In this document: positions 3,001-56,809 of the stretch, piece by piece
Position numbering within the stretch: the stretch's first letter is position 1
Layout: every line of letters starts with the position of its first letter
From: Bryum argenteum
Taxonomy: Eukaryota; Streptophyta; Bryopsida; Bryales; Bryaceae
Direction of reading: 5' to 3'
NCBI GenBank assembly: GCA_037043015.1
Contig: CM073324.1
Coordinates: forward strand, 16,706,597 to 16,770,596
DNA: 64,000 bases
Notes under the pieces: model-generated
What the model was told of the DNA's origin: nothing
What the model saw: only the letters and a program-made list of their open reading frames with translations
Databases searched by the model: none
Translations under genes and position numbers: made by a program

Positions 3001-6000
3001 CTTTGAAACGAAGGAAAGCCAAATCTGAAGAGAAGTCACAAACCATCGAGGAAGATATGGAAACTGATGAAAACATGTTAGAGGCTCGAAAGAGAACTTT
3101 CAAGGAAGATTTAGCGATAGATCCAAGAAGATGTGGATTATCAGTTTTGTGCTTTCCAAGGATAGCGCAACATGCAATATCTCCAGGACTTCCAGATATC
3201 AGGAGAAAAGCCAAGGTCAGACTTCTGCACCTTTTCAGCTAGTCCGTTTATTAGCTAACAAGTTCTACCGGTTGTTGCATTGTAATACTTATTTGCAGAT
3301 CTGCTTCCTGCATTTCGATTCTCGAAGGCCACATGATTCTAAATCTTAAAATTGCCTGACTTTGTTAACACAGGTTTTTCGAGGTGAGACTGATGAGGCC
3401 CAGGAGCAGCAATTGAGAGTAGCTGCTTATGATCCTCGATACATTTTACAGTTTGCTCTACATGGACTTTCTGAAGGGTGTATCGATACAGAGGAATTCG
3501 TGTGTCTTGGTTTTCTTGCTGTGGCTATGACATCTTTGAGCTCTTCTGAAGAAGGCATGAGAAAGTTGGGGTACAAGATACTTGCTAAATATTTTTCCAG
3601 TTTGGAGGTATGCCATCCGAACTTTGTACAACTCTTTTTTTGCACTTATTTCCATATGAACATGAGCTATTTTCCGCTTTTTATATTCGCTTCGTTACTA
3701 ATGCTGTTCGCAGTTCTTCTACGAAGTGCTTTGATTTATAACTTAGGACAACTTCTGAGTGCAGGAGGGTTCTAATTTTAAAGGACGTCCTCAAATTCAA
3801 ATGCTTTTGAATTATGTGAAGAATGCAGTTACTGAGGAATGGCAACAATTGCCCTATGTCCTGATGCTCTTTGCTGCGGAGTCTTCATGCATTCTCATGC
3901 ATCCAGAAAATCCTCATTATATGACCATTACACGTTATCTTCTGAAGGGTCCAGCTCTCGATCTAGCGGTTAGCACCCTGTTAACTTTCTTCAATTTTTC
4001 AAGTCTTCGAACTATTCAATGCATCAAGATCAATTCCCTTTAACTCTTCTTTCTTTGGTGTTCAGTATGTTCCGTTATTTCATTCGATGTTCGGAAGCGG
4101 ATCTCCACGTTATCGAAGTGAGCGATTGTGGATGCTGCGCATTCTTGCATGCGGTTTGACATCATCCCGAGATTCACGAGTCTTCGAAAAACAATTTGTG
4201 TTGGAGCTTCTAATGAGTTTTTATAACTCCCCACTGGCTGATACCTTCACAAGAAAATGGGTTTTACAGGTACTCTCAAGTTTAATACTGTATCTAGACA
4301 CTATATCTAGTTCATTTTGATACCTTCATTGTACCTTACAGAGAGGTTGATTTTTATCGATGCAGGTTCTTCTAAGAGCATCAAGAATACGAGGATGCGT
4401 GCAAGCCCTTACAGAGCGTTCAGGTTTTCTGCCATGGCTGGCTTCAGCTGCTGTAAATTACCTGGATTTGAGTACATCCGAGCAGGATTTGAAAGAAGCA
4501 GATGACCTGCCAATCATGGTTTTACAGGTTCGATATCGTGCATGTCCTGTTGATTTTGGGTTGCTTAAATTTGATTGTTGGCTATGAATGACATTGTTTG
4601 TTTCTTGCAAAGTCACATGCTTGGTGGATGAAATGCAGATCATGGAAAGAGTGCTTAGTTGGAAATTCATGGACCAACGTGCTATTGGAGAGGGCATGGC
4701 GGAGCTCACAACAGCTGCTCTCACATTACGTTACTTTTTGACGCATTGTGCAACAACTCCGAAGCAGTGGGCGATATTCAGGAGACCAACTATTCGTATC
4801 ATGACGTATGTCCTTCGCATCTCTCAGCGGAGGAAGAAGTATGAGACGCAGTTTCGCCTGTCCTTGTATGATATAGTGGAAGCAATCCGGTGGGTGGAAT
4901 CAGAAGGGCCAGACTACGGGTACGGTGTCCAGACATCTGCAGAAACACGGCTACTTGCCTTGCGAATGATTCTACAAAGCTCCCCTCCTGCCATCTTAAC
5001 GCCTGAGGTGAAGATCAGCTCAACTTAAGAGCTCGATAGCAGTGTCAGACTTTGAGCTCTCAAGCTTTGCAAGCTCTTTGGGCTGTATAGTTCATCTTGT
5101 TCTATTTTCAATATTCTGTTTACTCATCCTGATCTGCTTTTTCTTATACTGTTGACCATATTTTTCTCAATCTGCAGGACAAGGAACTCATGTGTAAGAT
5201 TGCTAGCTGGGCAGTACCTGTTGCAATTCAAGCTGTTCTGAAACAATCCACTGGTGGACACACGGAGTTCAAGATGTCTTCGGAGCCCTTACCGGAAAAG
5301 CTAACGCGCTGGATTACAGCATCCCTTGTGCGTGGTAATTTAGCTGTATACAAGAGCAAGCTGGGGGAAGAGAAGTCTACTGCAAAAGCCTTCATCTCTT
5401 GCTTAAATTCGTCGGACTTCCATCCTACCAATATAGAGCTAGCTAGCCAGTTATTGCGGTTGCAGGTACATGTCGCCGGGGAGGGAAGCAACTCGCTAGT
5501 TTCTGCCTTAGTGATGTTGTGGCCTCTCTACGAGCCTAACGATACAACACCAGGTTTGTGCACTTTCACCATCACTTTTTGAGGGAAAAATCAATTGTGC
5601 TTGTAATTGCTAGATCCAATCTGTATATCAAATCTTCACTTACATTTCGCTGACCAATCTACAGGGGACGTGAATCGAGGAATTGTTACCGCATCGATAG
5701 AATGTATACTTACCCACATACCCAAACTTCAAGAAGCTGATGACTCGTGGCGTTGGTAAGTCAAATTATTTCACCTACTGTACCGGATATGGGAAGCCAT
5801 AAGATGACCATTTCTAAAGCACGTTCGATGTCATGTACTGATAGAGCCCAGTCCGAGGCCTCAATAAACATTGTGACAGGATCATACTTGTCCTTTTATG
5901 TCTGTTATTTATACTTGTGGGAGCAGTGCAATGGTTGCATTTAAATTACTAAAATCATTTATAATCTTGGTCAGGTCTTCCAACAATGCTTGGCGTAAAA

Positions 6001-6212
6001 AGGAGTCCGCAGCCAGTGGAAATCCACGTTTCGAGGCGGAGATGAGTCACGCAGCACTCACTATATTCCAGCAACTTGTGCTGGGACAGAAAGCGTCTGG
6101 GCTTGCCCGACTTGTGTCGCAATGGGGGAAGGGATTAGGTGATTCCACTTCCAGCAATGACCTGCTTCCAGCATTGGAGCGTCATATTCAGAAACTGCGT
6201 ACTTTCCATTAG
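1..6212 (+). CDS. URB1: URB1 / Npa1-like nucleolar pre-ribosome assembly protein, 3' part (5' end outside window)
   Basis: This is the C-terminal part, about 1,619 residues, of a URB1-family protein. URB1/Npa1 acts in the nucleolus in early 60S subunit assembly and 27S pre-rRNA processing. Ten exons keep one frame: about 5-2727, 2956-3215, 3374-3607, 3765-3968, 4066-4269, 4366-4527, 4639-5007, 5178-5553, 5665-5755 and 5975-6212. All introns are GT-AG and 96-228 bp long. Bases 1-4 (GCAG) could be the acceptor of the first exon, and the frame is open to the window edge. The recognisable plant URB1 blocks are MDYLWGEAALKRRK at the start of exon 2, AIDPRRCGLSVLCFP, YDPRYILQFALHGLSEG in exon 3, EEGMRKLGY, and SPLADTFTRKWVLQ in exon 5. 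The first exon is helical-repeat-like and Leu/Ser-rich, with no catalytic motif, as expected for this scaffold family. Plant members are roughly 2,500 residues, so the N-terminal Npa1 domain should lie upstream. The family call comes from recognised motifs; the splice sites are inferred. Confidence 0.88.
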
Positions 6213-7239
6213 TATGCATGTTGGCTCCGATCCGGTGCTGTATGCTCAGATTGAACAGGTGCAGACACGCCTTTCTGCCTCTATACGCATGGGTTAGTGT
6301 AGTTTATGAGGATTGCACATTTTTGCTCTATTGTTAGAAGAAGAGTCTTCATTCAGAACGGAATAGGATCATTATCATGGTACCTCGAACGAGAGTTTTT
6401 TTGGCGAACAAGAGGTTCTTGTACTATACATTCCTTTAGTATGTATTCTTGGAGACTACAGTAAAAAAGTAGTCTTATATATTATGTTTGTAGCTGCTGA
6501 TCTAAGTCCAGTATAAAAGATTCGAGAGGTGTATAATAGGCTAAAACTGCATTTATGAGGAGGCGACCTTTTGGACTAAATCAGTGATTATTATATTCAA
6601 TCTCAATGCTGCATCAAGAAAGTGCTCTGAGTTAGTGCATGATACACGGATGGCAATTCCTGTCGACAGAAGCCCTTGGATGTAGTATACATGCGGATTC
6701 CTGGGTTGTGAAGTGCTGTGCAACATTGACCACGTAAGCGTAGTACGCACAAATTTATAACCGAATGCTTTGCAGATATCATTGGAATGTGGAACCAATA
6801 GTTTTTGGAGTGAATCGAACTTCTGTCTTGGGGCATATACAAGAATCTAAGCAGAACATCTATACAATATATATTTCTAGAGGCATCGCCCCAGTAAGGT
6901 CCAAAACACGCTGAATACGAGCAATCCTGACAGTCACCGATGTTTGCTTTGCATCCTTCCATTCCGTGTAGGTCTCTGCGGTACACGGAAGGCAGTTGTC
7001 AAGTTTGCTATATATACTGGACCAGGACATTCGTGCTACTGAAAATGGCGAAAACAGCGCTACCATTTCGTCAAATCAGTATGGTTAGTAAGATGATCCA
7101 TAAGATGCACCTGCTACAGCACCCGGCAAGATTGGCTGCTTGCTGGAACGTGAGAATGTATGCAGTTAGAGGATGAAAAATATGCAGGAGGACCCATCGA
7201 TATCGTATGCTGGCGTTGGACAGGACCTCTCTAAATATA
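6213..7239. other. URB1 3' flank and intergenic sequence
   Basis: The URB1 3' UTR should occupy the first few hundred bases after the stop at 6210-6212. Beyond it there are only short, unconvincing frames on both strands, with no recognisable domain or repeat. Confidence 0.5.
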
Positions 7240-41079: not shown

Positions 41080-41745
41080 CACGCGAGCACGCTAGGGTTT
41101 TAGCGCGGCGACCGTGTCTAGGCCTTGTTCGGGCCTTGTTTGGGACTCATACGCGCACCTTATTTTGGCCTCACGCGCGTGCACTTTGTTTTGGCCTCAC
41201 GCGCGCGCACTTTGTGTCGGCCTCACGCGCGTGCACTTTGTTTTGGCCTCACGCGCGCGCACTTTGTTTCGGCCTCACGTGCGCGCACTTTGTTTCGGCC
41301 ACACACACGCGCACTTTGTTTTGGCCATGCGCGCGCACCTTGTTTCGGGCCTCGTGCGAGCATCTTGTTTCGGCCTTGCGCGCACCTTGTTTCGGCCTCG
41401 CGCGCACCTTGTTTCGGCCTCGCGCGCGCCTTGCTTCGGCCTCGCGTGCGCCTTATTTCGGCCTCGCGCGCGCCTTGCTTCGGCCTCGCGTGCGCCTTGT
41501 TTCGGCCTCGCGCGCGCCTTGCTTCGGCCTCGCGTGCGCCTTGTTTCGGCCTCATGCGCGCGCCTTGCTTCAGCCTCACACGCGCGTGCCTTGTTTTGGC
41601 CTGACGCGCGCGCCTTGTTTCGGCCTCACGCGCGCACCTTGTTTCGGCCTCGTGCGCCACCTTGTTTCGGCCTCGTGCGCCACCTTGTTTCGGTGTCATA
41701 TGCACACCTTGTTTCGGCCTTGTTTCTTGTTTCGGCCTCAGCACG
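41080..41745 (+). repeat. CpG-rich minisatellite upstream of gene B
   Basis: Dozens of short units combine CTTGTTTCGGCCTC with runs of CGCGCGC. The array is strikingly rich in CpG against its AT-rich surroundings. Several frames are open through it on both strands (up to 311 codons), all repetitive, so they are not called as genes. A related array starts at about 63826. Confidence 0.9.
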
Positions 41746-42168: not shown

Positions 42169-45100
42169 ATGTCAACATCCTCTAAGGTACATATTTCTAA
42201 CTTTTCCAAATTTTATACATTAAAAAAAGAATATAGAACAAATTTATGGTGACAAGATCTTTGTGATCATCTCAAAAGAACAAAATCCGCGATTTTCATT
42301 TTCTTGTACTCAACTACAAACTACAAATGACATATTAGAAAGGGTAGGTAAGATGGATATTTCATTCACATAAGGCTTAACTTTATGGTTAATAAATCAA
42401 TTTCCTCATATCAACTATAACAATCACATAAGCTAAAACTAGTTGTAATGCAAAATATAACTTACTATCAACACTAAATTTAAGATAGAAACACCTTGTT
42501 GCCTCTCCTACTACTAATATATAAACAAAGTTGAGAAACTAAATAGCATATTCCAGAGTACTCCTTTACACTTGTATACACAACTAATTCTAGGTGTGCT
42601 TATCATAAGGTTTCTTGAAAAATGCCACCTCAAAGTAATTCAACTATATAATGTATACATAATGTATCATGGCATGGGTTGAGCTGCCAGGAGCGATGGC
42701 GGAGTAAGCGTTAGCGGCGAGGGGAGGGAGAACGTTGACAGACGAAGCGAGGCGTGGTGAAGCTGGGGCGCCGTGGTCTTGCACGCTCAAGCGTTGCGAG
42801 CTCCACATTGCGAATCGTGGAAGCTGAACTTGGAGGTGTCCTGCTGAGATCCGGATTTGGTGGATCTGGCTCATCGATATCTGCAGTTGGACGTGACTGC
42901 GAAGAAGCTGAAGCGAGCTACGCTACTCACGGCAGGGATCACAATCAGGATCTCAGTCCAGAGTCAGTCCAGTTCATGCCAAGCACGGATTCCGCACAGT
43001 TCGGACCTGTCTGACGATTCTCCCTCGCCATCCGCATCTTCAAACGAACACGATTCTGCAAGAGGAGCTTGTGGCGAACCCGCCACAGGGCCATCACGTG
43101 TCACACCAGCACTACTTGCGAACTGCTGTCCCAAAGCCTGCAAACTGCTCCAAGTCGTATCGAAGCCCACACCTCCAATCTTCAGCCCGTAGCAGCTCCA
43201 ACAAGCCTTCTCCAATCCCTGGTAAGGCCACTCACGGTACATTACTAACCCTAACTCCCACTTGCTTAGTACTTTACTTGCGAATTTCGTTTTGTTATTA
43301 CCAACTTGTAAGCTGTGCCCTAACCCCACGTAACGCCTGGGAGACATATGCTCCCAGGAGGGGCAAGGTAAACACTGGCAGAAATCCACGTCAACATCAT
43401 AAACAAACCCTAAGCACACAGAATAGCAAATCCATCTACTCTACTGTTCTATACTACCAATGCTACCAATACTCAAAATCAAGACTAGCATTTCTAACAA
43501 CTCACCATAAACCTTACCTTCGCTTACCTTGTGAGATACACAGGCACTCTAAGATGTCCAGCTCGCCTCCTAGGATGACCACTTCCACAGACACCGAAAT
43601 GGAAGAAGCTACGCTGAGTCATAAACGCAACACGCCAGAACAAGATGCAGCCAAGAAGAAGAAACTGAAGAACACCTATTCAGGAATTTCACTGTACAAG
43701 GATCCATCAATGATGGAACTTTGGCTTGGATTCCCAACAATGGAAATTCTTGCGTACGAAGCAAGTATACCACCGATCATCATCACCAAAACTGTGAAGG
43801 AGTTGACCAGTATTGGGTACATCGCAAGTGAAGCAAAAGAGCTCCTGATGGCACGGATGTCTTTCCCTCGAGTTGCTCAGAAACTCTGGCCGACCACCAG
43901 ACCAGATCATATTGACGGACAACACGTCAATATCACGCAATTACCTTTTGATATAGAGGTACACCCGGACACTCATCTGTCTTTAGATTACAACATCTTA
44001 CTTCACTTTGAAAAGCCTGAAAATCCATTTAGTCAAGACATTATCATGAACAAGGTTTTGCTGCGTTTGAAGCACATGAATATTGAACTAGGAGACCAGA
44101 TTGGTGAACCTGTAGCGGTACTATGTCACGGACCAAAATCAGCCAAGGTTTGGTCTGGGATGATAAAGCTACATTTGAAGAGTCCAGAACTCGATGGGAT
44201 CGCCTTGCTGGAAGGGAACAGGATCTTCGCCATCACTCTTGACAGTGACATACTCACTATCGCCAAGGTAGCAAAATCATTTGACCCCCTAGCCCCAAGC
44301 ACCTTACTCTCTATGAAGATCGCTAGCGAGACCATCAGAGATCTAAGCGCACATCAACTCTTGAAGGCAATCGTGGAAGACAGCTTCAAACGAGGACTAG
44401 AATATGAAGTTACACAGGCTCAGAAAAAAGTAGGAGAAGCTTACGGGTGGATAGTTACCACGTCACCAGAGCAACTCAGTAAGCTGAACAATGGTCGAAT
44501 TGGAATTCTCGGTGAGTTGCTACGTCCTACATCTACCAATAGAGACCATTTGTCTAGAGAAGCTGTAGTGAAACGAAACTGTGTAGTGTTGATAGCCAAA
44601 GGCCTAAACTTGAACAAAACTACTGATGTCGCGCACCTCTCCTTGAGGAGTGCCCGCAACACCAAGGGCCCAAGGGGGACACCGGAGTGACGCCCGGGCC
44701 TTGGGGTGCCAAGGTGAAGGGAACCTAAGTGGGCCTAGTGTGGGAGAGGACCCCGGGCGTTGGAGACGCCTCTCACCCATGGAGACTAGGAGCCACGACG
44801 GAATGGACATGAGATTATGGAAGCTCATGTTGCCACGATTCCGGGATGCTAAGGAGCACCTCATTTGGAGGTGTGAGCTAAAAGTTATGGGAGTTGGAAG
44901 ATTGTGGGACTAAAGGGAGTGCTGTCCAGGGACAGTGCTGGACTGGGAAGCTGGCCCGGGACTTCCGAATCTTCAGAGGGGCATAACTCCCTCAATACTT
45001 GTCGGAATGAGGCAAGTAAGGTGTCTATCGGCATCTACTTGACGAGTAGATGTCGATAGAGTGGTCGCTCGTCGCGTTTGGATGCGGGACGAGGTAGATA

Positions 45101-48100
45101 CGAGCCCTGGAAGGTTCGGGAAGTCTCCCGGGGCCTTCCAGCGGCTAAGGCATTGGGAGATTGGGTGGTCTTCCAAAACTAAGAGGTGTGAGGGTCCAGC
45201 CCTTCACCTAGGACCAGGGGGCTGCCGAATCCCACAGAGTATACTATGGGGAGGGCTGGTCTCCTCCCCACTCCCATGGTGCCTTGGTGGTGACCAAGGT
45301 GGGAGTCCCGAGTGGTGTGGCTAGTGTTGGGGCCTCACCATGGGGACTCCCAAGCCAAGGTGAGTCCCAATGGGTGGAGCTAGTGTTGGGGCTCCACCAT
45401 GGGGACTCAAAGTGCAAAATGAGGCACGGTGGGTGGAGCTAGTGTTGGGGCTTCACCACGGTGGCTCATAAGGACAAGGTGAGTCCCGGTGGGGGAGCTA
45501 GTGTTGGGGCTTCACCACGGGGACTCATATAGGCAAAATGAGGACCATGAGTGCTACCGATGTGGGGTGGTGTCTCACCGCCGGCGTTGTGATTACTTGG
45601 TGGCCTTGGGGTCACCATGGTGGTCATGGGCGGTGGTGAGGAGACACCACCAAGTGCGGTTAGGCCGCGTGGTATGGGAGTGCCACCAAGTTGGGCCTTG
45701 GACATAAGTGGAAGTCCGCACCTAACCATTGGCTACCTACGAAGGGGTTGAGTCCCGGTTGCATGAGTAGGAGGGATTGATAACCAAGCGGTGAGCTTGG
45801 TGGTTGGTATGGAGAGCTAACTTTGTGCATGTGGGGGATGTGCAGAGTTAGCGCTCGTGACACTTGCTAGAGTTGGGAAAAAGTTGGTGTAAGCTAAGGT
45901 GAGCTAGCAAGGGTTGCGACAACTGACCACATCACGGAAGCATTGAAAAAACACCTGGGAGAGCGCAATGTGGCATCTGTCTTCTACCCCAGCTCCAAAT
46001 CAGCACTCCACAACGGCGTCGTCAATGTAGAGTGTCTCAACGCTGCTGTGTACAAACAACACATTCGGAAGTCAGCGAAGATCTGTGGGAAGTGGATTGA
46101 ATTTCAACCTCACCCAAACAGCCTCGACGGGAGCGCCAAACCAGATGACGAAACGCTGAAGAAGCTTGGCTTCCTGGACGTTAACAACGCTCTGGCAAAT
46201 ACGGTAACTGCTCTACAGAACGCCACGGGGCCCAGTAAGCCATCGCTCACCAAATCTGATATTACCTCTCTAGTAGAAGAAGTTGTGTCAAAAGAGAACA
46301 ACAAACTGCGACACGAATTCAAGGAAGATCTAACCAACATCAAGAACGAGATATGCTCCGAAGCATAATTGTATGCAGATAAGATCGATCAGGAGCTAAG
46401 AGGCGCACTTGCGAATTTGGAGAGCGTGATGATGCAGAGCGTACAGGTCGTCCGCAACCTCTCTCGCCCGCAACTGCCAGCATCAAAATTGGACAACATC
46501 GCCTCAACCACGAACATCGTAGTGGCCAACCCCGTCCCTACTCCAACGCCAAACAGGTCAAGATAAAAAACCCCAGCGGAGGAGGAAGGAGCCAAGCGAG
46601 GGCGAGCAATGCAACTCGATATGCGGAGACCCTCAGTAAGCTGATATACGGTTACACTCGCGAAGCATGCAGAAGGAACGCTGGAACATGCAGGAACACT
46701 ACCGCCATGAAAGAGCGACTCTCAGACAAGACGGTTCCACAGAGGTACTCGCCAGTCAAAGTTCTGAGTAGAGTCAACGTCGCTTTCAAAAATATCATGC
46801 CGAGTTGCGTGATACGCAGCCATGTGTCGCTTATTATGAGAAAAACAAAAAATATAATAAAGCTCTATTGGTGTGTTAGTTACACTTGTACATCACAAAA
46901 AGCCTTACTCACTAAATCCCTCATACCATGGACCTCACACAGGATTGCATGGAAGAGAGTGCTTACCCGAACTATCCTATCCAAAACCAAATATATCTCT
47001 ATATATACGTACCCAAAATATCAATACCGCCATAAACAAACACATTCCCCACAACGAAATAAACGAGCTTGGTCTCCCAGCCTCGCCTTTACCAGAATAA
47101 ATATACTTAACAATTCAGAATTAAATATATATAACATCATAGGATTTAAAAGGTATGAGAAAGGAAGTAGAGCGGGGGGGGGACCGTCGCCCGCCGCAGG
47201 CTCCAAAAATAGAATTACTAAAAATAGAAATTACCGACAAAGTAAATCTAGAAATTACCGACACACTAAATCTAGAAAATACCGACATAATAAATCTAGA
47301 AAATACCGACATAATAAATCTAGAAAATACCGACATAATAAATCTAGAAAATACCGACATAGTAAAACAAGAAAATACCGACATAGTAAAACAAGAAAAT
47401 ACCGACATAGTAAAACAAAAAAATACCGACATAGTAAATCTAGACAATACCGACATAAAAGAAGAAAATAGAAGACAAAAAGTAAAAGTAATAGGAAGGA
47501 AAGAAAAAACAAAGAAAGTGAATAGAAATTATAGTAATAATGAATATCCCTTTACCTACAAAACAAAATATATAACACAATCGACCCTCAATATTACTAT
47601 AAAAAAATACTTTACATATAAAAATAAACGTAAAAATCCAAAATTTTACTACCTTTTATATGATAACAAAACAATCCTATTAGCAAACAAAGATATAGAA
47701 TCAAATCGGGACCCTATGCAAAATATACTTGGCACTCATTCAACCATGCATAAACATAGATATAAAACATTTTCGGAATATAAACCAAAAACAAACATAC
47801 TAGAAATAGAAATATTCAAGATAGTAACAAAAGACTCCAATTATTTGGAATCAAATACCAACCTATTTTTAGAAAACCTATTCTTTAAAGTTAAATATTT
47901 TCCGACCAAAACAAAGCTTCTTAAAATATCTATTGTTAACACTGTCTCAACATATGTGTCCACAAAAACTCTCAACACATACTATTATAAATACAATGAT
48001 ACGCACTTTTTATTAAAATGTGGAGATATTGAAACCAACCCTGGTCCTATGCCAAACGTGCTAGAAACTCACCCACCGGCTCACAAACGAAGATACAAAA

Positions 48101-51100
48101 CATACTTTATTACATGTACAATCAAACTCCAACTCGAATACCAAAACCTTGCAACAAGTTTCTCTCCCATTCTAAAACAAGATCACCAAAACCATCAAAT
48201 CACTATTAGAGACTTATTATATAATAAAGTGTCCATTCGTCGTATCAACCCACATATATACTATATCATTATAATAGGTACAATCAATAAAACTAAACCT
48301 CAAATCTTAGAGAATGATAAAATCACAAAAAAAATAATAAGAAGAAGAACTATTCAACACTTAAACACTTCCAAACACCAAAAGATAGATAGATACGAAT
48401 GCGGTTCCTCTTTCAAGACCGCCATGAATAAAATTTCTATCTTTCTTCACAATGAGCTAGTGCTCATAAAACACCAAAACATTGTACCAAAACCAATATA
48501 TAAAAAGCCTTTCACGTCGGCCCTTAAAGAGGACCGGAGTTCACATCTATCTATCTATATACAAACACCTCCAACAACAAAGAATTACACACCCAACAAG
48601 CAAACATGTCAAAAAATAACAACCATTATAATAGCAAAAATCAATAAAACTAAACATCAAATCTTAGAAAATGATAAAATTGTGAAAAAAAATAATAAAA
48701 ATAATAACTATTCAACACCTAAACACTTCTAAGCACCAAAAAATAGATAGATATGAATGCGGATCTTCTTTCAAGACCGCCATGAATAAAGTGTCCATTC
48801 GTCGTATCAACCCACACTCCACCAACTACCCTAAAACACAAAAAGTTACATTAACAAACCACACACAATGCACGCCAAACATTACAAACGGAGCTCGGCC
48901 TCCCGGCCTCGCCGATAGAAAACAACCCCAAAATATAGTATACTCTAAACAAAACAACTCAAAAAGAAAACAAAGCACCCCAGCAAGAGACAAACACTTA
49001 ATCAAAATCTACATAACACAGAAAAAACAACCCTACCAACCTTTCGGTCTCGCAAAAACTAAAAATAGGTTCACCCAAACTGTAAATGACAGCTGGATTC
49101 TTTATATATATACACAACCAAGACACATGTCAAAAATGCCCAAAACATACAACAACATCCCAAGCACCAGAAAAAACAAAATACACGAAACCCAAAGGGC
49201 TCGGCCTCCCGGCCTCGCCAATACACAAATACATAAAGAATTAACCAAAAATTATGACAACTTTACAAATACCACAAAACCCAACCAAACACGCACGTGC
49301 ATAAACTATAAACCCAACACTCTCTTCACACATAAAATATGGCAAACACAAAAAGATAACACATACACCTCCACATACCTAAAAACTCACACACAAAAAA
49401 CAAAATATACAAAGGCTATATCATACCAAATCACCTATTTCTACTCCTATGTGGAGATATCGAGTCCAACCCAGGACCAATGCCCAATGTCCTACATTTA
49501 CATCCTGCACTACATAGGAGACATAGTCGGACCTATTTTATACCTAGCACAATAATACTCTACCCCGAATACAAACACCTAGCCACAACATTTTCACCTA
49601 CCATACAAATCACCCACCCTCAACACCAAAACAGTTGCAACCTACACCCACATCTCACAAGTTACATCCACAATCATCCACATTTCCCTCCCCCAAATAT
49701 GCTATACGCTCTCATAACCACCATAGGACCACAAATAAACCTTTGTGAACAAACAATAACAACAAACCCAAATCCATATTGGACAACAACATTACTAAAC
49801 AAACTATCACGCCTCCCCAATGATCCTGCGAGACACCTAACCACTCCGCACCCCTACACAAAATTCCAACAAGCTAACCAACACCTTATCACACCAACAG
49901 AATGCATCCACAAAGAACTTTATAAACACATCTTGGACCCAAACAGCAATACCTCCATCCAAACACTTAAAACAACGTTCCCATACTTACCTGAAACACT
50001 ATTAATTGAAGCTATGAGATGTAAAGAACACCTTCCAGAATACTCACACCCGCCCCCATTGCCACCAGTCCATCCAATCATCCCTCAACCCCAACATACT
50101 ACCCAATCAAACACAACAATATCCACATGGAATGCAAGTTCCCTAAACACGGCTCTCCCTAACCTCTACAAAATCGCACTAAATCTCCCCGCAATCATTA
50201 CGGTACAAGAAACAAAACTCACCGCCAACAAATCCACAAAATACATTCAACGCATGTTACCACACTATAAACTAATTTTCAATAACACACATGCACTTAC
50301 CCGATGCATCCAACAACGAATACCGTACACCCCCGCAAGAGGTGGCCTCCTCACTCTCATACACCAAAAATACGCTTTCCCAGGAAACATTACAAAAATC
50401 CCTACCCCGGCCAACATCTCACCATACCTACAAATTATTCATATAGCAAACAAACCCCTCACCCCATGGCTACTCATCCATTTATACATGCCTTCCCATC
50501 CAACAGACATAAGTCTAATCCCCCTAATTCAACAAACAATCACCACCCAAATACAAACATACCCCAACCATACCCATATTCTATGTGGAGACTTTAATAG
50601 AGACATTGCCTTAAACGGTAGACAGAACGCGCACAACACCACACAGCCACAAGACGAAGACCACCAATGGCGTACATTCACGGACAACCTTAATCTCACA
50701 TATATTCCCACAAACAGCCCATTCTCCAAACAAGGAGGGCATAACTATACCGAAACCAGTCTTATCGATGGCTATTACACCACCGCCACGAACAACCACA
50801 TATTCACATCTACAACCAACCACACTCTAGAACTAAACTCCGACCACTCCCCCGTATCCCTCCATATTCCCCAACAAATACTTATAGCAAGGCCTCCACA
50901 AAAAACAACCCCAAAACCCCCACGTATTCTGAACCCCATCCCCCAAACCAATCTAAACACATTTACCACCACATATTTTGAACACAACGCAATCTCCATC
51001 AACGAACTCACAACAACCCTACAAAACGAACAACTCACCTCCACAGAATGGGCCACCGCCTGCACACAATTAGACCATCTCATTCACAACATTACGGAAA

Positions 51101-54100
51101 CACTGCTAACCACATGCTCTGCACCCCCCATCCCCGCCCTCACCACACAAACCAACCTACAAGGCGGTTTTCTCCCAAGAAAATCACAAAAAGATTGGAA
51201 AAAACACCTTTCCACATACCACCTAACCCGAAAAACAATATACATTGCTAACAACAATGACAACTGGAGAACACACCCAATATTACAAGCCATACAACAA
51301 CACACATATACGAATATCCCTCCGCCCCCTGAAAGTGATGACAATAAACACGAATGGCTTAACACATTAGCAGATATAGCTAAAACTGCAAACAAAAAAG
51401 CACGGGCCATTACCACAAAACACACACGCCAATCTATCATAAAAGCCATCACCAAATACGAGATACTCTATAACACCAAACTAAGAAAATAAACAACCGA
51501 GTTTTTAAAAATCTAGACACACCGCCACTTGACTGCATTACCACACGCAACAACGAAATCCTCACTAGCCCAGAAGATATCGCTCAAGAAATCTTTATAC
51601 AGCAATCAATCACTAACCGCCCAACCATCCCAACATGCTACTATCAACCAGACCACCTGATACCCTGCACATGTGCAGTCCGCCAATACCCATGGCATGA
51701 ATTAGACGGATTTACACTTGAAAAAAGAGGCACCCCAGAGATCCCCCTTCACACATACTTTACTCGCGAAACCTTCGACATTTGTCTAAAAAATCTCTCA
51801 CAAAACAAAGCCCCTGGCCCTGATAAAATCCCCAACACCATCCTCAAAAATATGCCAGATTCCTTCCAAACGCTATTATACCTCTTCTTTTACCACTGCT
51901 ATAAGCAAAATCAAATACCTGCATCATGGAAAACAAGTCTCACTATCCTGCTATACAAGAAAGGCAACCCCTCACTTCTACCTAACCACAAACCAATCGC
52001 GCTGGCCAACACAATATATAAATTATTCACCAGCACCCTTACATATATTCTCTCCGCCTATGGAGAACAACATCAAATCCTTCATGATAGTCAAGAAGGC
52101 TTCCGCGCAGAGAGAAGCACCTCACGGCAAATCCAACTCATCACAGCTGCATTGGAAGACGCTAGAATCACAAACCAAGACATCTATATCATGTACATAG
52201 ATTTCAAAAATGCCTTTGGGTCCCTCGACCATGCTAGACTACTAGCAATAATAAAAGACCTAGGCTATCCAAATGATGCTGTTACACTAATCGGTAATAT
52301 TTACTCTCACTCCACAACCATATATACAGGAGAATATTTTGGCCAAACAAAACCAATACCGATTCAAAGAGGCACCATACAAGGAGACACATTAAGCCCA
52401 TACCTCTTTATCATATTTTTAGAACCCCTCCTCAGATGGCTACAAAGAGGTAACCACGGATACAAATTCAACACATCAAGCACAACTATCAACTCCATTG
52501 CGTATCTTGACTGGGTCTCTTCACTTCTACCCTTCCAACACTACAAACACAAATGAACAAAATCAAAAATACGGTGAATGGACGGAGGACTTGAAGTCGG
52601 CACACACAAATGTGCGGTGACAGGATGCCCAAACAAATCCAAACTCTCACCCACAAACCTTCAAAACCTCGCCGCAAGCACAAAACATCAACTACAAAAA
52701 TGAACCATTACCCACGCTACACCAAAACGAAGCCTACCCCTATCTTGGCATTCAAATAGTACCAACACTCAAATGGAAACTACAAACACATCTCACCACT
52801 AAAAAACTCACTGAACAATGCCAAAAACTCTCCAATTGCCCACTACAAATCAAGCAAAAATTAACATGGTAGATACAATTATATACAGCGGGCATCGCGT
52901 ATAGCTTCTACGCAATACCCTACTCATTACCAATGATTAAAAAACTTGACAAGAAAATCACTAGCATCCAAAAAACTATATGTGGCCTACCCAAGTGTAC
53001 AGCAAACATTATAGCACAATTACCACACATAGACTTTGGTCTTGAAGCCTTCTCCCTCAAAAATGCTTAACTCAGATGCATTGGGGACCAACTAATAAAT
53101 GCACTCAATGACAAAGGCAAACTAGGTCTAATTTACCAGGGTCTTATCCAACACATCCTTGCAAAATTTGGCGGATCCAAAGAAATTCCCCGAATAAAGT
53201 ACAATGACTGCACCCACTCCCCAATCACAAGAACACTCTTTATACTTAAAGAAGCAGGTGGAATCCACCTACAAAGTACAATGGACAACTTTCAACTTGA
53301 TGCCACTGAATTAGAAACACAATGGATGTCCCAAGCATCAATCCTTTTGCCCCACCTTGATCCCAAACTATCCATCAAACTCCTACACAAACTATTGAAG
53401 CACAAAATATACAAAATAAAACACCTCACACTACCAAACGGAACCACCCTCATGTCGCCTATAGATTTCAGAAAATATTATAGGAACCCTACAAAATTAG
53501 AAAGAAGCGCCCTAAATCTCGCCCAACAACTCTTCTGTCAAAGCAGCTGCACTTCTGTTTGTCCGCACCCATGCAACACGCACCCTCCAACCCATCTTCT
53601 CATCAACGAATATATTTCACAAAACCACGAAATACTCCCCCCCATCTCTCCACCTCCAACACACCCAACCCCCACACCAATGACACCAACAAGACCCCCA
53701 CCCAAAGAAATCATCAATGACCCGATTACGTTCCCCATACACCACATCTCTGCCCATAAACTAACCACCAAAAAAGATAAATACAACATAACACACTCCT
53801 CTAATATATACATTTGTCATTGGGAAATACATAACAACAGTACATACCACACGTGGTTATCTCCTAGAATACTATTCCCCAGGAACCTTCCAACAGTCAT
53901 AAAACATAATCTTAACTTATTGTTTGACTATTACACACAAAAACAGCACACATTGTATAAACACATCATTAATACATGCTTCACACCACCTCAATTAAAA
54001 GACAATCGTTTCATCCCACCACCTACACACATACCCTCCTAAATATCCACCTCCAAGACTGCAATCCAGACAAGGATATCCTCACAAACTCTCACACCAT

Positions 54101-56719
54101 AAAAGTCTTGAATGAAACAACACAACTATTTGACAATACCAGACATTTCCTCATCACCATCCCCACCTCCAGACTTACATGGCTATGGATGCAATACCAG
54201 GCATGCCTTAACAAAAACCACGGACTTACCCCTCCTACCCAATCATTCGAAACTGAAATCATTTTACTATACAAGCGGTACAATCACACTCTCTCCAAGC
54301 GTAATCCCAAAACAACAAACCATCACATGCTCCCCACTGCTCTAATTGACACACTTATCGAAACATTCCAAATTACACACACATACTTCTCCTCCCCAGT
54401 TACATGCCCATTACAAATCACAAAATACTACTCCATATTCCCCCGTGACAGAATAGTTGGCTCAAATGGTCTAGCTTTCCAATACAAATGGCAAGGTATT
54501 GGCTACGCCCATCCACACAACGAAGAAACCGCTCAACAAACTATACACTGGGCTAGATTAGCCGCACAGCAAAATCCAAACGCCACAACCATTGTTGTCA
54601 TGCCTGACAAACAATGGTTCCACAATCCAACCCCATACTCCACTGAGTTCCCAGATACACACGTTTTACTACACTTTGCAGCCGACACAATAAAATACGA
54701 AGAACCCACTATACCCGATAATCACACTAAACTCCGCACCGAACCTAACACGCTCTTAATCCTTTGTATCCACCACAAACGTCATACCATCACCACTATA
54801 GAAGACATACATAACCTCACAACCACACTTAATGTTCTCTCAATTACACAATACCAGATCCAAGAAATCCCCTCTACTCCTGAAAACACTACAGTCAACA
54901 AAAACAAAAATTGGTCTAAATCATTATATCCTCCAATCTATATACCTACTATGTCAAACACACCGCCAATACCACAATACAACTCACTTCACCCCATCAA
55001 ATTCCCGCCACAATATAGTTATTACACAGACGGCTCGTTTATACCCCCCCAAGAAACAGAATCTGGCCATTGGAGACCTGAAACTGCTGGTTATGGTATC
55101 TACAACCCGACCAAAATAGAGATACAAATCTCCAAAAGACTACCAGGCCTCCAAACAATCTTCAGAGCAGAGTTAATCGCCATATACAAAACACTAAAAA
55201 TTATCACAACAAAATATAACAACGAGCCGACATATATCTTTACCGACTGCATAAACTGCCTATACGTACTACAAACACAGTTAACACGCCCCACATTACA
55301 AAATAACCATCCAGACCAAAAAACTCTCATTGCGATCACCAACCTGCTAAAACTACGCACACAACCCACCACATTCCACAAAGTACAAGCCCACGTCAAC
55401 ATCGCCGGAAACGAAAAAGCAGACAAACTTGCGAAAACAGGAAATGAGAAAACCTACAAATTTGCCCGAAAACCACATAAATTCGCACATACCACCCCGT
55501 TCTACTTTCAAAAAGATATATGGCCTGGACCGCACCACAGGCCTGATAAAGGCCCAGTGAGATGTCTTGCCACATACCTCTCCAAATATGACCGCGACAA
55601 TAATCTCACCCTCCTCGCACAGAACTTCCCTAATATAAACAAATGGACCTCAAACCAAGACATTCATGCCGAATCCTCAAATGCCTTCTGGAATAACCCA
55701 AATATCACAGATTCCCAAATAACTAGTATATTAAAATTTCGCACAGGCCAATACATGGGACATGCACGTAAACAACTATTCTTTGGACACATTAGGTTCC
55801 CATCAAACACATGTCCTATCTGCAACTCCACAGATGCAGACACATGGTTACATGTACTACTCAAATGCCCCCAACCAAACATACACGCACTTAGAATTAC
55901 CAGACATAATCAAGCAACTAAATCCATCAAACAACTCATCCTCTCTAATACCAAATCAAGATGCTACACACTTATAAATGCAGGAAAACACCTAAATGAA
56001 CCCCCCGATAACACAGTGCCAAGCTGGCTCCTCCCTTGCACCTGCAACACACGCCGATGCCACTGCAACGCAAGACTTAAACCAGACTTACTCTGCGTAA
56101 TAGGCCTACCACATCAAGACACACCTCCACAACACCCCAATGACAACGTTATCATCCAATACATTGAATTCACATACTGTAACGACAGATTCCCACAAGA
56201 AACCATCACAAACAAAACCAACAAATATCAATCTCTACTAGACTCAATAGCCGCTCGCGGCTGGAAAGTTAACCCGCTCATAGTTATAACTGCAGGCGCT
56301 AGAGGCACCACTCACATACCGTCCATGAGTGCCCTGGAAACTACATTTAAACTCACCAAACAACCAATATATACCACATTCAAATCAATTAACACCATAG
56401 CCATACAATACGCCGCTCTAATCCTCCTACACAAGAGAAAACTAGAAAACCACCAACCCCTCCCTTCCAACTCAACCTGAGAAAGAAAGGAATCACATCT
56501 AAAACACCAATGTTTCCACCAACACAACTCGTACCAAAAACTACCCTATGTAGGTTAACTCTAGCCTAGCCTAGCTTCTGCCTTCAGTGGTGTTTAGTGT
56601 CTATTCCCGAAAGGGGTGAGTAGTTTTGTTCTTTTACCTCTTTGTCCTGTGGCCATCGAGGTAATGGCATTACGAACAGACACTGTATTCACGCCAATCT
56701 TCAATTGAAGATTGGAGTT

Positions 56720-56809
<90 letters not shown>

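Follow-up and report, generated by a model that had tools for sequence, protein, structure and literature searches.

A conserved 2A-like sequence within ORF2 of a LINE family of the moss Bryum argenteum

Organization of the LINE copy in the window

The stretch of Bryum argenteum DNA analysed here (the window, 64,000 nucleotides, to which all positions refer) contains a decayed LINE on the forward strand, at roughly 43.5-56.8 kb. Its ORF1 is found in two parts, one at 43560-44630, with an approximate right edge, and one at 45898-46368, which ends at a premature stop at 46366. Between them lies an insert of about 1.27 kb, whose bounds are set by where the ORF1 reading stops and resumes; the inserted DNA (about 44630-45900) is G-rich and contains 59-nt repeats. 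An open frame at 47143-48732, termed unit B, consists of a repeat-rich leader with two upstream 2A copies and matches lineage L042 at 47443-48215. The leader end at 49075-49428 is common to copies L002 and L003 and is broken in the window copy by a stop at 49357, while copy L014 has the same arrangement as the window from 48100 on. The next open frame, at 49360-51492, includes the 2A-like sequence, an N-terminal domain (about 49480-50130) modelled as helical with a pLDDT of 80.6, and an AP-type endonuclease (EN, about 50125-50856). Reverse transcriptase (RT) follows at 51474-52556, with RVT_1 at about 51978-52511, and a frame at 53973-56480 holds a PCIF1-like domain (about 54219-54614), RNase H (about 55014-55442) and a probable restriction-like endonuclease (RLE, about 55812-56477). 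All of these lie on the forward strand, as does the folded 3' end of the element at 56590-56722, which has a (TA)n tail behind it, up to 56807. The window copy is inactive, as EN and RT sit in different frames, the C-terminal domains are scattered over further pieces, ORF1 is broken and the stop at 49357 is in frame with the endonuclease.

In Pfam, the AP-type endonuclease was identified as PF14529 (28.2 bits against a cut-off of 27.4), whereas PF03372 stayed below its cut-off; RVT_1 scored 67.9 and RNase H 49.7, and a domain of the PCIF1 type was also detected. The best PDB matches of the RT are R2 proteins, with L1 next. Alignment of the C-terminal part revealed a CCHC finger together with R-H-N and K-P-D...I-E-F-T-Y motifs. 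We take CCHC, R-H-N, K-P-D and I-E-F to be the motif names of restriction-like endonucleases, and on these motifs the domain is probably an RLE, with a weak structure model (mean pLDDT 58.7) and with no relative found by a PDB sequence search. The PCIF1-type domain, of the cap m6Am methyltransferase family, is located between RT and RNase H. Throughout the LINE family it has a conserved HPHN at the position where PCIF1 carries NPPF, so that it may lack the usual mode of catalysis. Among the literature matches listed, nothing to the point was found on PCIF1 domains in LINEs.

The 3' end of the element folds far better than its shuffles (z -4.2, 0/200). Its terminal repeat is (TA)n in the window and in L049, L050, L052 and L055, and TATC in L051; L054 has none. 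Across the whole window nothing reached the Rfam gathering score, two matches below threshold close to the 3' end seem to be chance matches, and there is no tRNA gene. The coding strand of the element is poor in G, with a GC skew of about -0.4 to -0.54 over 48001-56000; TAG and TGA stops are therefore rarer, and the comparison of stops between frames given below allows for this. Elsewhere in the window, an array of repeats of about 22-26 nt (TTGTTTCGGCCTCACGCGCG) at 41152-41693 is open in several frames on both strands. The window also holds a CHMP1 gene, with 97% identity to an environmental protein, 93% to Physcomitrium patens, the nearest of the named mosses, 87% to Diphasiastrum and 86% to Riccia among the best 120 of 1096 matches, which by itself makes a moss host very probable.

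The 2A-like sequence of the window copy

The sequence N-H-L-F-L-L-L-C-G-D-I-E-S-N-P-G-P is encoded at 49429-49479 of the forward strand, with N-H-L-F-L-L-L at 49429-49449 and C-G-D-I-E-S-N-P-G-P at 49450-49479. Its last eight residues, DIESNPGP (49456-49479), agree with the octapeptide (D/G/C/N)(V/I)ExNPGP, and the signal is conserved in the family. Skipping is predicted between 49476 and 49477, which would make the adjoining ATG (49480-49482, in the EN frame) codon 2 of a downstream product beginning P-M-P-N. Judged by eye, the L-rich stretch ending in C-G fits the description of StopGo motifs 2 and 6 (PMC12846837, partial text). A second exact core, C-G-D-I-E-T-N-P-G-P, followed by M-P-N-V-L, is found in unit B at 48019-48048, and a third, decayed core, K-D-I-E-S-N-R-D-P, at 47689-47715, both on the forward strand. 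None of 100 shuffles of the window contained the degenerate DNA motif, of which the real window has two exact copies (48022-48047 and 49453-49478); together with the lack of reversed matches in the genome, this rules out a chance origin.

These observations agree with the preliminary description in that CGDIESNPGP, with HLFLLL before it and an ATG after it, is present and in frame with the EN domain. That description had also placed the motif before a joint EN-RT frame, exactly before ORF2, and had regarded the ATG as the first of its frame. EN and the N-terminal domain do follow in frame and directly, but the RT of this copy lies in another frame, and the motif is not at the start codon of ORF2. 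The ATG at 49480 is the first of its frame in the window copy because of the in-frame stop at 49357; in 33 of 40 loci at least one in-frame ATG is located upstream of the 2A. The tight picture of a motif and then a first ATG is thus in part a product of the decay of the window copy.

Distribution of the motif in the genome and among relatives

A search of the genome (258.8 Mb in 25 contigs) gave 162 exact matches to the motif and none to the reversed pattern. ATGCC, the start of the ORF2 N-terminus, directly follows the motif at 155 of the 162 sites, and the ORF2 N-terminus was encountered behind the motif in all 11 regions retrieved around motif sites. There is no sign of the motif in host genes, given the LINE ORF2 start at 155 sites and the remaining seven, which were read in part.

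The search with the 2A-EN frame yielded 571 candidate copies, the best-preserved 63 of which were scored, and 59 of these reach the N-terminus. The exact DNA motif is kept in 45 of the 59. The other 14 comprise L011, in which the octapeptide is present and the preceding G is lost, five copies with decayed cores, L029, which lacks an anchor, and seven that were unread. At the protein level, the octapeptide is kept in 24 of 30 loci from this search; five have decayed cores (NPRP, NPEP, DVKPNPGL, NPSP and DIKSNPGP) and L029 gave no match. Presence of the motif in family copies had been set beforehand as the test on which the proposal could fail, and the outcome is mostly favourable, with the motif exact in 45 copies and the upstream frame open in most, and unfavourable for the 14 of 59 without the exact motif. 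Three copies retain a single open frame from EN to the C-terminal domains (2334, 2613 and 2941 codons), and the two longer ones have an exact 2A at the start of ORF2.

Protein relatives numbered 127, of which 120 were listed. NPGP occurs in 45 of the 120 listed relatives, the 75 without it pooling loss and truncation. In these 45 metagenomic proteins NPGP is followed by M in 28 cases and by L, R, K, I or T in the other 17. Position 14 (p14) is H in four listed relatives (P0011, P0025, P0068 and P0099) and Q in another four (P0082, P0093, P0116 and P0119). H at p14 is reportedly an active variant in viral StopGo sites, and Q at p14 is absent among the variants described as active in the partial text of the same source (PMC12846837).

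Selection on the motif and the open leader

Selection was estimated from 38 codon-aligned loci, leaving out L011, L029 and L036 (too short) and the upstream-only loci. The nine codons of G-DxExNPGP have a pN/pS of 0.09 (pS 0.72, pN 0.07), a value lowered by the retrieval of 10 of these 38 loci by way of the motif itself. The ratio is 0.39 in the hydrophobic stretch preceding them and 0.87 in the leader; behind the core it is 0.22 over 20 codons and 0.34 over the remaining N-terminal domain. In 23 close pairs, made up of loci from the protein search with leaders taken from the last in-frame stop, it is 0.17 in the 20-codon 2A region, 0.24 in the main ORF2 and 0.75 in the leader, for which some alignments with microsatellites (L017-L024) were poor. 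Selection in the 2A core acts on the amino acids and not on the DNA.

The leader upstream of the 2A is near-neutral (0.75-0.87), yet its frame is held open. Across the 29 of 30 loci that gave an anchor, the median distance to the first upstream in-frame stop is 273 codons, as compared with 32 and 39 codons in the other two frames. Nine of the 29 have no in-frame stop within 440 codons, while L001, L011, L019, L020, L023 and L028 have one within 90. As the copies are related, neither these counts nor those of selection are independent trials. The frame that is open through the motif in the relatives is the one broken at 49357 in the window copy. A near-neutral open leader followed by a constrained 2A and a constrained enzyme is as expected if ribosomes traverse the leader and the 2A removes it.

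Within the leader, a GC-rich 21-nt box (GCTCGGCCTCCCGGCCTCGCC) occurs twice on the forward strand of the window, at 48893-48913 and 49199-49219. It has 71 exact copies in the genome, with none of the reversed control, and lies in the 2A frame in 35 of 41 copies with an anchor. Its codons hardly vary, and this suggests a role at the DNA or RNA level rather than a peptide motif, though the box is mostly in the 2A frame. The ORF2 leader of L032 contains, at positions of about 5430-6560, short-unit repeats that extend over more than 1 kb and are open in all three forward frames.

The ORF1-ORF2 junction and tandem 2As

Both the end of ORF1 and the 2A frame are readable in 12 copies. No ORF1-2A-ORF2 polyprotein was found among them, ORF1 ending at its own stop. 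The earlier suggestion that the 2A separates the replication protein from an upstream product therefore has to be modified: ORF1 is not that product, and the 2A is preceded instead by a long, rapidly changing leader with which ORF2 begins. In six of the 12 copies, the start of ORF2 is an ATG that shares bases with the ORF1 stop and is in frame with the 2A, through TAATG (L004), TGATG (L032) or ATGNNTAG (L013, L021/L034, L027 and L033). The leaders of these six copies are 224, 341, 427, 511, 638 and 872 codons long. The overlap is decayed in L016 and L024, and present in L025, which loses the frame downstream. The readable copies nearest to the window copy (L003, L005 and L031) have no stop-start overlap, and the 2A frame of L005 extends back, uninterrupted by stops, over the final 496 nt of ORF1.

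Several of the sites are doubled. On the same strand, exact sites less than 2 kb from each other form 14 pairs, ten of them at a spacing that is a multiple of three, and at four loci (L015, L022, L035 and L036) two exact cores share one open frame. The segment between the two 2As of L036 is an N-terminal domain with part of an EN from another copy, in frame. The relatives P0011, P0025 and P0068 have two NPGP each, and in the window unit B precedes the leader end that matches L002 and L003 from 49075.

Proposed translation of ORF2 and alternative explanations

Taken together, the sequence evidence makes it probable that this two-ORF LINE carries, in the motif, a true StopGo (2A) signal within its ORF2, in the order ORF1, re-start, leader, skip and enzyme. 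Ribosomes would finish ORF1 at its own stop and, in many copies, re-start at the ATG overlapping it (UAAUG, UGAUG or AUGNNUAG). They would then translate the leader of 224-872 codons and skip the glycyl-prolyl bond at N-P-G|P, which would release the leader, and continue into a protein that begins P-M-P-N and carries the N-terminal domain, EN, RT, the PCIF1-like domain, RNase H and the putative RLE.

The explanation that comes nearest to this proposal is programmed frameshifting out of ORF1, by which the leader and ORF2 would be reached and the 2A would separate an ORF1-leader fusion from ORF2. It could account for the 496-nt overlap in L005 and for L003, L005 and L031, which have no ATG at the ORF1 stop. 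It is nevertheless unlikely, as the stop-start overlap is in frame in six of the 12 readable copies and several have a frame-0 stop shortly before it. Still more doubtful is that the ATG behind the motif is the true start of ORF2 and the motif a conserved peptide or RNA segment of other use. The regularity with which an ATG follows, at 155 of 162 genome sites and in all 38 aligned loci, would suit such a start; the non-methionine residues in 17 of 45 listed relatives and the open upstream frame would not, and the difference between pS and pN in the core places selection on amino acids rather than on DNA. The context is also unsuited, with C at -3 and +4 in 40 of 40 loci, though both are forced by proline codons. 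On the context and the 17 of 45 relatives, this ATG is unlikely as the main start, and as the sole start it is disfavoured by the same relatives, the open upstream frame and the upstream ATGs of 33 of 40 loci.

Two further explanations can be given very little weight. A partially active 2A might serve as a targeting switch, sending skipped and unskipped forms to different places as in sea-urchin NLR proteins, in keeping with the hydrophobic stretch before the core and with the partial skipping and dual targeting reported for such sequences (PMC4981915, partial text). The leaders, long and near-neutral, are unlike a short N-terminal signal, however, and a LINE protein needs the nucleus. The least probable is that the motif is a relic without present function. 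Stops in the window copy and in many others are what a relic would show, but the low ratio persists in the close pairs (0.17), and single frames of 2334-2941 codons survive in three copies, two with the exact 2A in place.

If the motif acts as a StopGo signal, the 2A would shield the replicase from any in-frame sequence upstream, and leaders would be free to drift, to expand by microsatellites, to be swapped and to stack 2A units. More tentatively, with a chance that we put slightly short of even, StopGo may be a shield that makes the front of the replicase evolvable, allowing leader drift, swaps and the uptake of pieces with a 2A and an N-terminal domain, or even EN. Since the 2A would always trim the product to P-M-P-N, selection would ask of the leader only that it stay open, and near-neutral drift, microsatellites, lineage swaps and LINE polyproteins with two 2As would follow. 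The motif, its frame, the selection on it, the stop-start overlap in half of the readable copies and the tandem copies are observed directly; re-initiation, skipping and this shielding role are our inference.

Significance

The data support the presence, in a land-plant LINE, of a 2A-like signal that is canonical, in frame and under selection. 2A-like sequences in trypanosome and animal LINEs were reportedly treated by Heras in 2006 and Odon in 2013. A search of titles and abstracts found no land-plant or Dualen case, although Odon 2013 may hold a plant one; the initial remark that no land-plant case is established agrees with this search and is weakly supported by it. No plant LINE with a 2A is named in the available parts of PMC12846837, PMC4981915, PMC11512398, PMC5972666, PMC5009743 and PMC4640811. 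Natural StopGo has so far been associated with viruses and, in animals and trypanosomes, with some LINEs and genes, and the moss LINE, selected and in many copies, would show its use by a plant lineage and would supply native plant 2A sequences for testing. Its near-neutral leader beside a conserved enzyme offers a clear setting for how a 2A shapes polyprotein evolution. If the evolvable shield is true, this would be a natural land-plant StopGo system combined with stop-start re-initiation.

Comparison with known systems

2A-like sequences are known from LINEs of trypanosomes (L1Tc), sea urchin and other animals (PMC4981915, PMC12846837, PMC5972666 and PMC11512398, partial texts). The moss element shares with these a D(V/I)ExNPGP core in frame with LINE proteins. 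By their descriptions, it differs from them in its host, in its probable second endonuclease, in the stop-start overlap upstream, and in a 2A that stands behind a long near-neutral leader and occurs twice in some copies. The likeness to viral StopGo sequences of the L-rich class extends to D at p12, I or V at p13, G at p11 and an L-rich stretch ending in (A/S/C)G, and to H at p14 in listed relatives of the moss LINE; the moss motif differs in being located in a plant retrotransposon. An L-rich example (motif 6) is active in vitro, and StopGo functions in plants in constructs, while almost none has been found in plant viruses (PMC12846837, partial text).

Overlap of an ORF stop with a start is a known setting of termination-reinitiation, including that of the silkworm LINE SART1 with UAAUG (PMC5972666, partial text). 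The moss element resembles SART1 in the overlap of the ORF1 stop with the ORF2 start (TAATG in L004), but its re-started product would begin with a leader that ends in a 2A, and other moss copies use TGATG or ATGNNTAG or have no overlap. Finally, Dualen/RandI LINEs carry both an APE and an RLE (PMC4640811, partial text). The moss element is like them in its APE, RT and RNase H and, if its terminal domain is indeed an RLE, in that domain too; from their description it is set apart by its PCIF1-like domain and its 2A.
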